Under the pieces are notes generated by a model, which did not search any database, was not told the origin of the DNA, and worked only from the letters and a program-made list of their open reading frames with translations. The translations under genes were made by a program, and so were the position numbers. Positions 3,997 through 6,496 of a stretch of 10,542 nt of DNA are shown in pieces. The DNA is from Clostridia bacterium (GTDB lineage Bacteria; Bacillota; Clostridia; Oscillospirales; Acutalibacteraceae), in assembly GCA_900763035.1 (NCBI GenBank), contig CAAFIS010000118.1, positions 1 through 10,542 of the forward strand. The letters run 5' to 3'. Position 1 is the first letter of the stretch, and each line of letters begins with the position of its first letter.

Positions 3997-4014
3997 TCCT
4001 TCCGCAAAACCCTT

Positions 4015-4058
4015 GCCCGCCGTGTGCAAAAGCACACGGCGGGCAGTCTTGTCTTTGC
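4015..4058 (+). terminator. rho-independent terminator of pflBA
   Basis: Perfect 13-bp stem GCCCGCCGTGTGC (4015-4027) and its complement (4032-4044) around an AAAA loop, followed by the T-rich AGTCTTGTCTTTG. An A-run (4006-4010) lies upstream, so it may also work weakly on the other strand. The stem is identical to that at 6455-6484. Confidence 0.88.
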
Positions 4059-4068
4059 TCGGTGGCCG

Positions 4069-4116
4069 TTGACAGACGTCTGCCGCCGTGATAAGATGGG
4101 ATCGGATGCGGCAGAT
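4069..4116 (+). promoter_or_regulatory. promoter of the ATPase gene with operator-like repeats
   Basis: TTGACA (4069-4074), a 17-nt spacer, then TAAGAT (4092-4097). A perfect 10-bp palindrome CAGACGTCTG (4073-4082) overlaps the end of the -35. An inverted repeat TCTGCCGC (4079-4086) / GCGGCAGA (4108-4115) flanks the -10. The 8-mer GTCTGCCG (4078-4085) reappears as CGGCAGAC in both promoter copies of the downstream HNH gene, which suggests a shared regulator. The promoter match is direct observation; the operator role is inferred. Confidence 0.7.
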
Positions 4117-4140: not shown

Positions 4141-5964
4141 ATGCGATCGATCGCCATAACGCCGGAAGGGTATCGCTCGATCAAGGAGCCGGTCCGGATC
4201 GACTTTTGTCGGGATCTGCCGACCGTGCTGGTCGGCAAAAACGGCAGCGGTAAAACGAATATCCTAAGCGCACTGGAATGGATCACCCAAAACGCCCGGA
4301 GCGGGATCGCGCCGCCCGGTGAGGGCCCGCAGGGCTGGACGGCGGAGCTTTTGTTGTCGACGGAAGATCTGGCCGAGCTTTTTCCCGGGCGAACGGATCT
4401 GCCGGAGGAGATGCCGATCACGGTCTGCGCCGGTGCGGACGGCCGGATCGGTCAGATCCGGTCGAAGGAGCTGACCGCCCTTTTGCGTGAAGAGCTGCAC
4501 GCGATGACCGAACAGGCAAACGCACTTACGCACGCGCTCGACAGTTACGAGCAACAGCTTGCCGCCATCGCCGGCGACGATGACGAGATCGATCCCGTGC
4601 ATTGCTTTGCGGCCACCGACCATCGCGGCCTGTCGACGAACTACGGCATGCTGTGCCTTCGCCTTGGGTGTACACTGGATCGCGCCCGCGAGCTGGCGGA
4701 CGCGGTGCAGCGCAGCTTTTCCGGCGAAGAAGATGCATTTTCGCTCATGGCGTTCGATGCTTATTTCGGATCGCTCGATGCGGCGATGCTGCCGTTTAGG
4801 CTGGCGTATGTCGAGCCGCAGCTGGCTGCGTTCGAAAAACGGTATGTCACCGTCGACCGGACGAACCTACGGCGGCAGATCGCCCGGATCAACAAAAAGA
4901 CGGCAGCGGCCTGTGCCGCGATCGATGAGCAGTGGAACGCGCTCACGCAGCGGATGAAGGGCCTGCGCGCGGCACTGACGAACGAGCAGACGATGTTTCC
5001 CCGCGACAGTGCATTGTGCCCGCTCGTTTTCCGGATCCGGGCGGCCATCGGCCGCCGATGCCTGTTTTTGCGCAGTGAGAACAGTGCCGTCATCTTCAAG
5101 GAAAACGAGGGCCGTCAGCAGATCTATCGGCAGGATGCGTCGCACACGATCCTGGCGGTGTATCTTCGGCAGGTCTATCGCGGGGATGACCGGGAAGAAA
5201 GGCTCCGGCAGCTGGAAAAAGGAGAGATGCCGTCGCTCTCCGACGAGGAGACCGACGCGTTCACATCGTATCTGCGCAGCGTGCAGCCGCAGTTCGAGCA
5301 GGGGATGATCAGGGACATCACGGTCGAACGCGGCGAGCGGGGCGAGCTTTCGATCGTTCTGCACGAGAACACCGGCGACACCGTATCGCTTGATCAAACG
5401 AGTGCGGGCAGGCGCTGGTATTTCACGTTTTTGCTGATGAAGAGCACGCTTTCCCCCGGTGATCTGTTTTTGATCGACGAGCCGGCCGCGGCGCTCCATC
5501 CTTTGGCGCAAAAGGCGGTGCGGGAGGAGCTGTGCGCACTGAAGCGGGCCGGGATCGAGGTGGTCTTTACCACCCACAGCCCGTATCTGATCCCGGATGA
5601 GCAGCACTGCGTGCGGTTCGTCACGATGACGGACGGCGGCACGGCGGTGGCGGCGATCGGGGACGAGGAGCAGATGGCCACCCTGCGGGCGCAGATCGGC
5701 TGCGACGGCGACGATGTTTTTTCGCTGCAGGAGCTGGTCGACCGATATAACCGCGATGCCGAGGGCGTGGCGCACCGCTGTTATGATGAGCTGATGAAAA
5801 AGTTCAAAAACGTAGAGGACGCTGCGGAAAGGACGCTGCTCTCTCTCGAAACGATCAAGTCTTGGCATTCCGGGAGCAAAAAGAAAAAGCGCGCACCGAA
5901 ATTCGAAAATGTGATCCGCGCGGCGACCGCGCTCGGCATGCCGCTTTCCGACTTGTTTAGATAA
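4141..5964 (+). CDS. OLD/AAA_21-type ATPase with C-terminal XRE-like helix-turn-helix
   Basis: A 607-residue cytoplasmic ATPase of the ABC/OLD-like class. Visible elements: N-terminal strand and SIKEP turn (13-17), Walker A GKNGSGKT (32-39), a helical, charged middle (about 105-300, possibly a hinge or coiled coil), signature-like SAGRR (421-425), Walker B LFLIDEP with D446-E447 (442-448), and the H-loop TTHSPYL with H479. No TOPRIM nuclease domain follows the ATPase core, unlike in OLD or GajA. Instead the last roughly 60 residues (546-607, ending in SLETIKSWHSG...FENVIRAATALGMPLSDLF) match the pattern of an XRE/HTH_3 DNA-binding domain with a Lys-rich insert (570-574). The start is set by AAGGAGGG (4127-4134), 6 nt before the ATG. 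It is followed 149 nt later by an HNH gene, the layout of Septu PtuA/PtuB. The ATPase fold is near certain; the HTH is likely; a defence or self-regulating role is inference. Alternatives are a DNA-repair ATPase or a phage-derived regulator. Confidence 0.85.
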   Translation: MRSIAITPEGYRSIKEPVRIDFCRDLPTVLVGKNGSGKTNILSALEWITQNARSGIAPPGEGPQGWTAELLLSTEDLAELFPGRTDLPEEMPITVCAGADGRIGQIRSKELTALLREELHAMTEQANALTHALDSYEQQLAAIAGDDDEIDPVHCFAATDHRGLSTNYGMLCLRLGCTLDRARELADAVQRSFSGEEDAFSLMAFDAYFGSLDAAMLPFRLAYVEPQLAAFEKRYVTVDRTNLRRQIARINKKTAAACAAIDEQWNALTQRMKGLRAALTNEQTMFPRDSALCPLVFRIRAAIGRRCLFLRSENSAVIFKENEGRQQIYRQDASHTILAVYLRQVYRGDDREERLRQLEKGEMPSLSDEETDAFTSYLRSVQPQFEQGMIRDITVERGERGELSIVLHENTGDTVSLDQTSAGRRWYFTFLLMKSTLSPGDLFLIDEPAAALHPLAQKAVREELCALKRAGIEVVFTTHSPYLIPDEQHCVRFVTMTDGGTAVAAIGDEEQMATLRAQIGCDGDDVFSLQELVDRYNRDAEGVAHRCYDELMKKFKNVEDAAERTLLSLETIKSWHSGSKKKKRAPKFENVIRAATALGMPLSDLFR

Positions 5965-5970
5965 AACGGA

Positions 5971-5984
5971 GGTACAGCTGTACC
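5971..5984. promoter_or_regulatory. perfect 14-bp palindrome, operator 1
   Basis: GGTACAGCTGTACC reads the same on both strands. It ends 3 bp before the -35 of promoter copy 1, with its centre near -44 from the predicted transcription start. That is the usual place for a class II activator, although a repressor site is also possible. It begins 6 bp after the ATPase stop codon. Confidence 0.75.
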
Positions 5985-5986
5985 CG

Positions 5987-6015
5987 TTCTCCGTTTCGTG
6001 TGGGTCCGATATATT
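5987..6015 (+). promoter_or_regulatory. promoter copy 1 of the HNH gene
   Basis: TTCTCC (5987-5992), 17-nt spacer, TATATT (6010-6015). The -35 is weak, as expected for a promoter that needs an activator at the adjacent palindrome. Predicted start near 6022. Confidence 0.5.
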
Positions 6016-6037
6016 GACGGCAGACTCCGAACGCGGG

Positions 6038-6049
6038 GTACAGCTGTAC
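6038..6049. promoter_or_regulatory. perfect 12-bp palindrome, operator 2
   Basis: GTACAGCTGTAC, identical to the core of operator 1. It ends 2 bp before the -35 of promoter copy 2, with its centre near -43 from the predicted start. Confidence 0.75.
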
Positions 6050-6051
6050 TC

Positions 6052-6092
6052 TTCCCCCTTTCGTGCGGGTCTGCTATACTGACGGCAGACCC
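6052..6092 (+). promoter_or_regulatory. promoter copy 2 of the HNH gene with an inverted repeat around the -10
   Basis: TTCCCC (6052-6057), 17-nt spacer, TATACT (6075-6080) with an extended -10 TGC. Predicted start near 6087, giving a leader of about 27 nt. A perfect 8-bp inverted repeat GGGTCTGC (6067-6074) / GCAGACCC (6085-6092) encloses the -10 and start point, a typical repressor position. In copy 1 this repeat is degraded (GGGTCCGA / GCAGACTC). Confidence 0.65.
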
Positions 6093-6113
6093 AAACGATA
6101 GGAGGTATTCGAA

Positions 6114-6425
6114 ATGTCGAAGTACAGCTGCGCCGAACTGTGGGAGCGGGCGTTCGGCAGCAAACAGCAGGTCTATGACTATGCCGGTCGGCTGATGAAA
6201 AAGGCCGCGTGCGGCGATCCGCACAGCGCCTACCACCCCACGGTCGACCACATCCGGCCGCTCTCGCAGGGCGGGAGCGACGTGCCGGAGAACATCATCA
6301 TTTGCCATCGCGATACCAACGCCGAAAAGGCGGATCGCTTCCCGAGCTGGCGGACGAACGGCTGCACGTTCCACGCCGTGCGTATCCGCGGAAAACGCAC
6401 GGGCTACCGGATCGAAGAAGGCTGA
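6114..6425 (+). CDS. small HNH endonuclease-like protein
   Basis: A 103-residue protein with a compact beta-beta-alpha-metal (HNH) core: VDHIRPLSQGG (44-54), PENIIICH (58-65) and TNAEKADRFPSW (68-79). The likely catalytic and metal residues are D45, H46, N60 and H65, with N69 nearby. The paired CxxC zinc motifs common in larger HNH enzymes are absent; only single cysteines at 6, 33, 64 and 84 are seen. The N-terminus (KYSCAELWERAFG) resembles stand-alone clostridial HNH proteins. Start set by AGGAGG (6100-6105), 8 nt before the ATG. It is expected to cut or nick nucleic acid; the target is unknown. It lies 149 nt after the ATPase gene, on the same strand, but with its own tandem promoters, so it may be an effector held off until needed. 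A truncated copy of the palindrome (GTACAGCTG, 6122-6130) lies within its first codons. It ends in TGA 29 nt before a strong terminator. Confidence 0.85.
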   Translation: MSKYSCAELWERAFGSKQQVYDYAGRLMKKAACGDPHSAYHPTVDHIRPLSQGGSDVPENIIICHRDTNAEKADRFPSWRTNGCTFHAVRIRGKRTGYRIEEG

Positions 6426-6454
6426 CGGACAGGCCACCCCCCGCAAAAAACGCT

Positions 6455-6496
6455 GCCCGCCGTGTGCTTTTGCACACGGCGGGCGTTTTCGTTTTT
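6455..6496. terminator. bidirectional rho-independent terminator
   Basis: Perfect 13-bp stem GCCCGCCGTGTGC (6455-6467) / complement (6472-6484), TTTT loop, followed on + by GTTTTCGTTTTT. On the minus strand it is followed by a run of six T (complement of 6445-6450). It fits between the convergent HNH and rsmE genes and can serve both. It is the exact reverse complement of the hairpin at 4015-4044. Confidence 0.92.

Follow-up and report, generated by a model that had tools for sequence, protein, structure and literature searches.

The stretch analysed here (the window: 10,542 nucleotides (nt) of contig CAAFIS010000118.1 from a Clostridia bacterium) carries a two-gene module in which an ATPase with a C-terminal helix-turn-helix (HTH) region is followed, on the same strand, by a small HNH protein. 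On balance, we read this module as a transcription-gated nuclease from a family, mosaic and probably anti-phage, whose one conserved HNH nuclease is controlled by an HTH and a sensor that can be exchanged. Related loci keep the HNH but have, in place of the ATPase-HTH, either a small HTH gene preceded by a HEPN-motif, DUF4238 or SEC-C protein, or a set of Abi-like, HTH and viperin genes. In the mechanism that we propose, the ATPase head would sense a cue of infection or DNA damage and alter the activity of the HTH, which would sit on a palindrome upstream of the HNH promoter, at a position relative to the predicted −10 that is given below, and would control HNH transcription, most likely by activating a promoter with a −10 but without a clear −35. 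The rise in HNH expression would then allow the protein to nick or cut nucleic acid, and this cleavage would block the phage or stop the cell. That the HTH controls the HNH appears highly likely, and activation is slightly favoured over repression.

The exchange of upstream genes was found in a scan of the genomes of 84,980 species, which required exact matches to two short peptides, so that only close kin of the HNH are visible in it, and which returned 42 HNH loci, the window not among them. An ATPase with an HTH-like C-terminus lies directly upstream of the HNH, on the shared strand, in 14 of these loci, and in 23 of the other 28 that place is taken by a protein with the HEPN motif (12), by DUF4238 (7), by a prokaryotic viperin (3) or, in one locus, by a Mokosh-like helicase. 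The HEPN-like class, named solely from the motif RN-x3-HGDY (12/12 loci; Pfam gave nothing above cut-off in the three proteins tested), continues with a separate HTH gene of 71-73 residues (longer in the open reading frame (ORF) called in L036). An HTH gene likewise follows DUF4238 in all seven loci of that class (assigned by Pfam in L024, L028 and L040 and by blastp kinship in the rest), and one stands in front of viperin in the three viperin loci (profile match in L005, blastp in the others). Outside these classes, L015 has an ankyrin-like protein, L035 only a short, relic-like ORF, L037 a SEC-C protein with an HTH and L038 the Mokosh-like helicase; the upstream side is lost at a contig edge in L004 and L039. 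Altogether, an HTH is present in 37/42 loci, as the ATPase C-terminus in 14 and as a separate gene in 23. The initial annotation of this DNA, which proposed the ATPase and the HNH as a defence pair, had counted an HNH occurring without the ATPase as evidence against it. Literally, such loci do occur, yet most of them have a different protein with an HTH in that place, which indicates modular exchange rather than a stand-alone gene.

Co-occurrence was further analyzed in 394 genomes of one order, a sample centred on G005 that includes five genomes already represented in the 42 loci (G003, G004, G005, G010 and G416). The ATPase is found in 5 of these genomes (E≤1e-30), and the HNH in 17 at E≤1e-8 and in 8 at E<1e-40, the 103-residue class (Fisher p 3.5e-7 for co-occurrence). 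Upstream of the latter eight lie the ATPase in four (G003, G004, G005, G408), a HEPN-like protein in two (G318, G416), DUF4238 in one (G010, the L019 genome) and a contig cut in one (G241). The HNH is adjacent in 4/5 ATPase-bearing genomes, three of the four being known loci and G408 new. The fifth, G411, is also new and keeps the operator, the promoter, the ribosome-binding site (RBS) and the first HNH codons, after which other sequence follows, by either a real loss or an assembly break. In L052 (from ~560 down to 440 on the minus strand), ATPase, operator, promoter and RBS are intact and the HNH is swapped for other sequence after a few codons, through recombination or an assembly break. 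In a separate sample of 200 genomes, both ATPase-bearing genomes have the HNH and are probably the known loci L002 and L027. Among close relatives, 3 of 13 HNH clusters have the same longest-contig size (7124, 2601 and 69347) as one of 20 ATPase clusters, which suggests shared contigs. Hence, the linkage that the initial annotation assumed stands, and we regard it as nearly certain that the ATPase and the HNH form a linked module; its exclusiveness does not, as the HNH is not a dedicated partner of the window ATPase.

The boundaries of homology between loci locate the exchange. Out of 180 possible ATPase-HEPN pairs, window included, 96 have a blastn match covering the HNH, and the match ends at the HNH RBS (−20 to −5) in 80 of them and at −60 to −21 in 16. 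For the HEPN-DUF4238 pairs (n=43), homology extends into the HTH gene in 7, ends at −130 to −61 in 14, at the RBS in 19 and elsewhere in 3; in both sets a locus can belong to several pairs, so that the pairs are not independent. The clearest swap is that of L008 (HEPN-like) and L027 (ATPase), which are 91% identical from −16 to +506 and unlike upstream. An HNH tree of 41 rows (L039 and L040 left out, the L036 row truncated) requires 17 changes of upstream label and places ATPase and HEPN loci as sisters (100/93 for L033 and L036, 100/85 for L006 and L008).

A second regularity concerns the sequence that precedes the HNH: along with an HTH and the HNH itself, a palindrome and a promoter are mostly retained across the loci. 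For each HNH, the best-scoring −10 hexamer on its upstream side was chosen blind to palindromes, and palindromicity was then scored at every offset in 39 of 43 loci (window included; the near-copies L002, L003 and L020 were left out, as was L039, which lacks upstream sequence, and L023 and L032, 94% identical, were both retained). The loci average 4.77/8 paired positions at 31.5 nt from the −10, versus 2.13 (standard deviation 0.36) across all offsets. At least 6/8 pairs are found at this offset in 16/39 loci and at any other in at most 2, and in 401 runs with random per-locus shifts the best offset never gathered more than 6. The palindromes themselves differ among loci (GGTACANCTGTACC, TGGACAGCTGTCCA, GGTACTGCGGTACC, GGTGGTGCGCCACC, GAACCNNNNGGTTC). 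The rule holds in 7/13 ATPase and 7/11 HEPN-like loci; among its misses, L006, L010, L016 and L019 carry a good palindrome within ~1.5 nt, and the others an imperfect one or none. Loci found later also fit at 31.5 nt (L053 7/8, L052 7/8, L074 6/8), one of them with a 34%-identical ATPase, but L074 is a near relative of L008 (HEPN-like proteins 93% identical) and hence only two provide new evidence; L051, with a palindrome at 32.5 nt, is probably L027 again and was not counted. Within 4.5 kb around each HNH, a search for 14-mers with up to two mismatches returned no further operator copies besides the window duplicate described below and three weak, A/T-rich matches in L023, L032 and L038, loci without a recognised operator (in L009, L016, L019 and L026 the 14-mer is out of register with the palindrome).

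In the window, the 150-nt gap between ATPase and HNH contains a tandem duplication of 65-66 nt in which GTACAGCTGTAC occurs twice, both times with a separate −10 (Table 1). This 14-mer has three matches at up to three mismatches, against 0.15 expected, the third (three mismatches) falling at the HNH start. The centre of copy 2 lies at 31.5 nt, and the window therefore presents the combination by which we propose to define the family, an HTH and a palindrome at a fixed distance from the HNH −10. The suggestion in the initial annotation that the HNH gene is separately controlled is thus supported by a predicted operator-promoter unit of its own, and a duplicated one. No copy of the gap palindrome was found at the predicted ATPase promoter. 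For the window, the idea that the palindrome is just a terminator was rejected: it is not followed by a T-run there, and in HEPN-type loci a separate hairpin, itself terminator-like, precedes the palindrome; in the ATPase loci L022 and L034 it may be operator and terminator at once. An RNA element in the gap was also rejected, given that an Rfam search of the window returned no match.

Table 1. Features of the module and its flanks (window positions)
Feature	Position	Strand	Remarks
Terminator-like hairpin 5' of the module, after the radical SAM gene	4013..4046	+	15 pairs, 11 GC
Promoter-like site of the ATPase gene	4069..4097	+	TTGACA-17-TAAGAT; consensus match only
ATPase, SMC/ABC-type head (AAA_21/AAA_15) with C-terminal HTH region; likely sensor-regulator	4141..5964	+	607 residues
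C-terminal HTH of the ATPase	5815..5955 (residues 559-605)	+	HTH_3 under cut-off; helices in model
Putative operator copy 1, GGTACAGCTGTACC	5971..5984	+	repeat and 14-mer search
−10 of promoter copy 1, TATATT	6010..6015	+	operator centre at 32.5 nt; read from sequence
Putative operator copy 2, GGTACAGCTGTACT	6037..6050	+	centre 31.5 nt from −10; 7/8 pairs
−10 of promoter copy 2, TATACT	6075..6080	+	best −35 candidate 3/6 matches
RBS of the HNH gene, AGGAGG	6100..6105	+	in relatives, usual left edge of homology across differing upstream genes
Predicted HNH nuclease, H46-N60-N69	6114..6425	+	103 residues; Pfam and active-site motif
Terminator-like hairpin 3' of the HNH	6454..6485	+	scores as terminator on the opposite strand too

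The architecture of these promoters bears on the direction of control. A palindrome centred 31.5 nt from the start of the −10 lies at about −43, that is, ~43 nt upstream of the predicted HNH start site, and lambda CI, C proteins and other activators bind close to this position. Promoters of the ATPase type have a −10 with 5-6/6 matches in 13/13 loci and a −35 that averages 2.54 matches versus 2.53 in random placements, and this pairing of a strong −10 with a −35 at random level favours activation.

A role of the module in defence is likely, and the grounds for it are its neighbours, above all viperin, the Mokosh-like helicase and the Abi-like and cyclase-like genes. The initial annotation had drawn this role from architecture only; the setting of the relatives now adds to it profile matches to viperin (L005, 3.5e-67; L024, 6.7e-75 with PADLOC pVip), MkoA (L038, 9.2e-74), AbiD and a cyclase (L032, 6.3e-4 and 4.8e-6). 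In L024 (2759-3580), viperin lies directly 3' of the HNH of a DUF4238 locus. In L023 and L032 (~−2550 to +311) and L005 (−1911 to +311), an Abi_2/AbiD-like gene, an HTH gene and viperin precede an HNH that starts 25 nt on, with a cyclase-like gene in L023 and L032; here viperin and HNH look like one operon behind the HTH. A further defence-type neighbour is a related 603-residue gene found in both L034 (2870-4681), where it is HEC-05-like (PADLOC 2.5e-29), and L006 (~−6545 to −4734).

Several observations weigh against a transcription-gated, exchangeable module. The evidence for it consists of sequences and models, from which binding, expression and effects on phage are inferred. The window HTH scores below the Pfam cut-off, as do two of the four separate HTH proteins tested, the other two passing it, and in L015, L035 and L038 an HTH gene could not be recognised. 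The operator rule is followed by only 1/7 DUF4238, 0/3 viperin and 1/5 other loci, although in the viperin loci a promoter directly before the HNH is not expected, since the HNH lies 25 nt after viperin. Two ATPase HTH types share one GTACA-type palindrome, and a strict match between HTH and operator is therefore not established. HEPN-type promoters have a partial −35 (mean 3.82 matches), with which repression fits equally well. Two HNH frames are cut short by an early stop, that of L032 at 78 residues and that of L036 at 70, in both cases past the active site. The bootstrap of the HNH tree had not settled, and its labels, with 17 changes compared with 22.2 when shuffled, are more clustered than random, so that the pairing is partly inherited. 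Finally, six of the HEPN-like and DUF4238 proteins were compared with PADLOC, and none of them gave a match up to E 0.01.

Other explanations of the module were considered. The adjacency of the two genes and an ATPase head resembling those of PtuA, AriA and SMC proteins are also what would be expected, by analogy with PtuAB, of a Septu-like complex in which ATPase and HNH bind, sensing by the ATPase leads to post-translational gating of the HNH, and the HTH does no more than limit the HNH level. We consider such a complex unlikely, because the same HNH family adjoins at least four unrelated protein types and the window HNH lacks a PtuB match; with an HNH that is not dedicated to the ATPase, it is not the simplest reading. 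In a toxin-antitoxin-like unit, the HNH would be a toxin restrained by the HTH and, in many loci, by an adjacent small acidic protein, a possible DNA mimic. Acidic genes of ~50-60 residues do follow the HNH in many loci (pI 4.05 in two examples) and also the divergent HNH of L085, but no such small gene lies right after the HNH in the window, L005, L013, L021, L023, L025, L029, L030, L032 and L035, and Asn-rich, coiled-coil-like, MatE or viperin genes fill that place in other loci, which leaves this explanation with little probability.

The sporadic distribution of the HNH among metagenome-assembled genomes (MAGs), the sharp exchange boundaries and the recombinase-like genes in the stretches of 12 loci (named by eye, without a profile) would suit a homing-type endonuclease that uses gene conversion to propagate the cargo next to it and is limited in its activity by the HTH. 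This we hold to be very improbable: the HNH is too small for an obvious specificity domain, and nearby recombinases are uninformative on the HNH itself. The otherwise housekeeping-type genes of the window might even suggest that a resident ATPase gene and a small HNH gene unrelated to it are neighbours merely by chance, yet the repeated adjacency, the fixed operator spacing and the co-occurrence contradict this to the point of making it barely credible.

Among the closest described systems, Septu (PtuA/PtuB) and type I-A retron effectors are similar in layout, with an ABC/SMC-type ATPase without TOPRIM beside an HNH gene; our module differs from both in the HTH on the ATPase, the operator-promoter of its own in front of the HNH and an HNH family common to other upstream proteins. 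For retron-Eco7, PtuA and PtuB are described, in the parts of the report consulted, as toxic only in combination (PMC11555353). Profile checks against Septu, retron and OLD families agree with the initial annotation that this is not an ordinary Septu. Membership in Septu was rejected on the scores of the ATPase against PtuA (38.3 bits versus a cut-off of 500 in NCBIfam, where the model is that of retron Ec78 PtuA, and 40.8 bits in PADLOC, behind AriA, mad3 and Old) and on the missing PtuB match of the HNH: no PtuB model is among its PADLOC matches up to E 1, and there is no PtuB chain among the seven PDB matches up to E 10. A type I-A retron was rejected in view of the absence of a reverse transcriptase among the nine window proteins scanned and of any Rfam match in the window, and OLD or Gabija GajA because no C-terminal TOPRIM was detected by Pfam up to E 1, an HTH-like region occupying that end. 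PARIS (AriA/AriB) and OLD-like systems share the AAA_21-type head, AriA being the best PADLOC model, but here the partner is an HNH and the ATPase has a predicted DNA-binding tail; PARIS was rejected since the ATPase has no AriB TOPRIM beside it, only the HNH and housekeeping-type genes.

In function, the module looks closer, by analogy, to controller-protein restriction systems and to RptR, except that its regulator carries a sensor. As far as the consulted parts of the literature go, C proteins of restriction-modification systems are likewise small HTH proteins acting at a palindromic box in the promoter of a nuclease gene, one of them is fused to its nuclease and a C protein contacts sigma-70 (PMC4824078). 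In the module, however, the HTH is either part of a larger, sensor-type protein or encoded behind one, and the palindromes are unlike the C-boxes quoted there (PMC4824078). A C-protein restriction-modification system was rejected as there is no DNA methyltransferase in the module, the nearby methyltransferases being of the PrmA and RsmE types. RptR is likewise a small regulator and acts at a palindrome within a defence promoter, but it represses a whole island via direct repeats and, in the parts described, has neither a sensor domain nor an HNH unit (PMC12255303). The accessible portions of the DefensePredictor paper (PMC13092281) do not mention an ATPase-HTH/HNH unit, nor was one found described in the open-licence PubMed Central literature, covered mostly at the level of titles and abstract openings, which is weak evidence of absence.

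Tentatively, a transcription-gated module of this kind might represent a new class of immunity, in which many unrelated infection sensors, each by way of an HTH of its own, act on a single conserved and transcriptionally switched HNH, through gene activation and not a pre-formed complex, and in which the ATPase-HTH is a phage-sensing ATPase turned transcription factor. If so, AriA/PtuA-like ATPases, HEPN-like proteins, DUF4238, viperin and a Mokosh-like helicase would be joined via one nuclease and one promoter design, a role would be suggested for DUF4238, and immunity would be rewired by sensor swaps ahead of a constant output. The 103-residue HNH together with the operator provides a searchable signature.

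The window ATPase matches AAA_21 (3.2e-23) and AAA_15 (2.6e-17) in Pfam, and its motifs are intact: Walker A GKNGSGKT (residue 32), signature-like TSAGRR (420), Walker B LFLIDEP (442) and H-loop TTHSPYL (477). By sequence and fold comparison, its head is of the SMC/PtuA/AriA type, with fold TM-scores of ~0.2-0.3 over the query and a structure model of only moderate quality (pTM 0.56). The HTH that the initial annotation placed on the ATPase gains from the helices modelled at residues 540-555, 558-565, 569-573 and 588-598 and from an HTH_3 match on the last 107 residues (E 0.0098; 0.069 for the whole protein), at 16.4 bits versus a cut-off of 23. No relatives of the ATPase were found in viral contigs.

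The HNH belongs to its superfamily by Pfam (PF01844, 8.5e-7, 29.5 bits versus a cut-off of 21.4; HNH_4, 1.8e-6) and, as initially annotated, has no CxxC pairs in its 103 residues. The H-N-N spacing is retained in 41/41 proteins (window counted; L039 and L040, cut by contig ends, left out) and, with its steps of 14 and 9, is like that of the HNH domains of Cas9 and IscB and of the Gme HNH nicking endonuclease; in the module, by contrast, the HNH is a stand-alone protein. Its best NCBIfam profile is Cas9d (2.1e-8), at 33 bits far under the cut-off of 375, and PADLOC-DB 2.0.0 returned only Cas9 and REase_II models up to E 1, none better than E 0.0067. A fold search gave 4h9d and 8f43 first (E 0.14-0.5) and no match at ≤0.001, from an uncertain model (best mean pLDDT 81, the other four 42-67). 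Relatives in the genome scan are 55-72% identical over the matched segment and come from MAGs labelled Clostridia, Bacilli, Acholeplasmatales and Anaeroplasmataceae. A phage or plasmid origin was rejected: no close HNH was found in viral contigs (three loci at 43% over 35-42 residues) or in phages (21 Mycobacterium phage records, best 45%, none covering 80% of the query), and plasmid records gave a single 43% match, in a 987-kb Mycoplasmopsis cynos record. That HNH (L054:5953-6267) lies beside an annotated nicotinamide mononucleotide transporter, in a gene table that lists none of the partner types described here.

The remainder of the locus is as the initial annotation had it, with ORFs, Pfam and hairpins confirming an AAA_21-like ATPase without TOPRIM and a 103-residue HNH between terminators in a housekeeping setting. 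The module stands between a glycyl-radical enzyme operon and rsmE/prmA-type genes, and its neighbours, named by us from Pfam matches, are a germination protease, a pyruvate-formate-lyase-like enzyme, a radical SAM protein, RsmE-type and PrmA-type methyltransferases, a ThuA protein and a LepA-like GTPase. The two flanking hairpins are long, strong and nearly identical, and no exact copy of their 13-base arm was found elsewhere in the window and the compared loci. Among 291 genomes, the closest PrmA reaches 57% identity, and in five genomes with such a prmA no other window protein (lepA excluded) lies beside it at 1e-15; with matches this distant and devoid of other window genes, an empty insertion site could not be compared.

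Downstream of the HNH, many loci have a second exchangeable gene, of two acidic kinds (~50-60 residues), Asn-rich, short coiled-coil-like, MatE-type transporter or viperin (L024), none of which follows the window HNH. A MatE-type membrane protein gene is found in this place in L022 (tested with Pfam), L026 and L076, and its apparent beginning in L012, cut by the contig end. The small acidic gene also lies behind a divergent HNH of 121 residues in L085 (3839-4396), where the 59 residues that it encodes are 100% identical to a second copy in L006, at +1290. A separate branch of larger HNH proteins (L078-L082; 313-329 residues, the HNH plus a further, C-terminal domain) occurs without these partners, the listed stretches having no ATPase, HEPN-like or DUF4238 gene, and L083 and L084 encode proteins of 521-548 residues with two HNH-like repeats in which the catalytic His is apparently lost.

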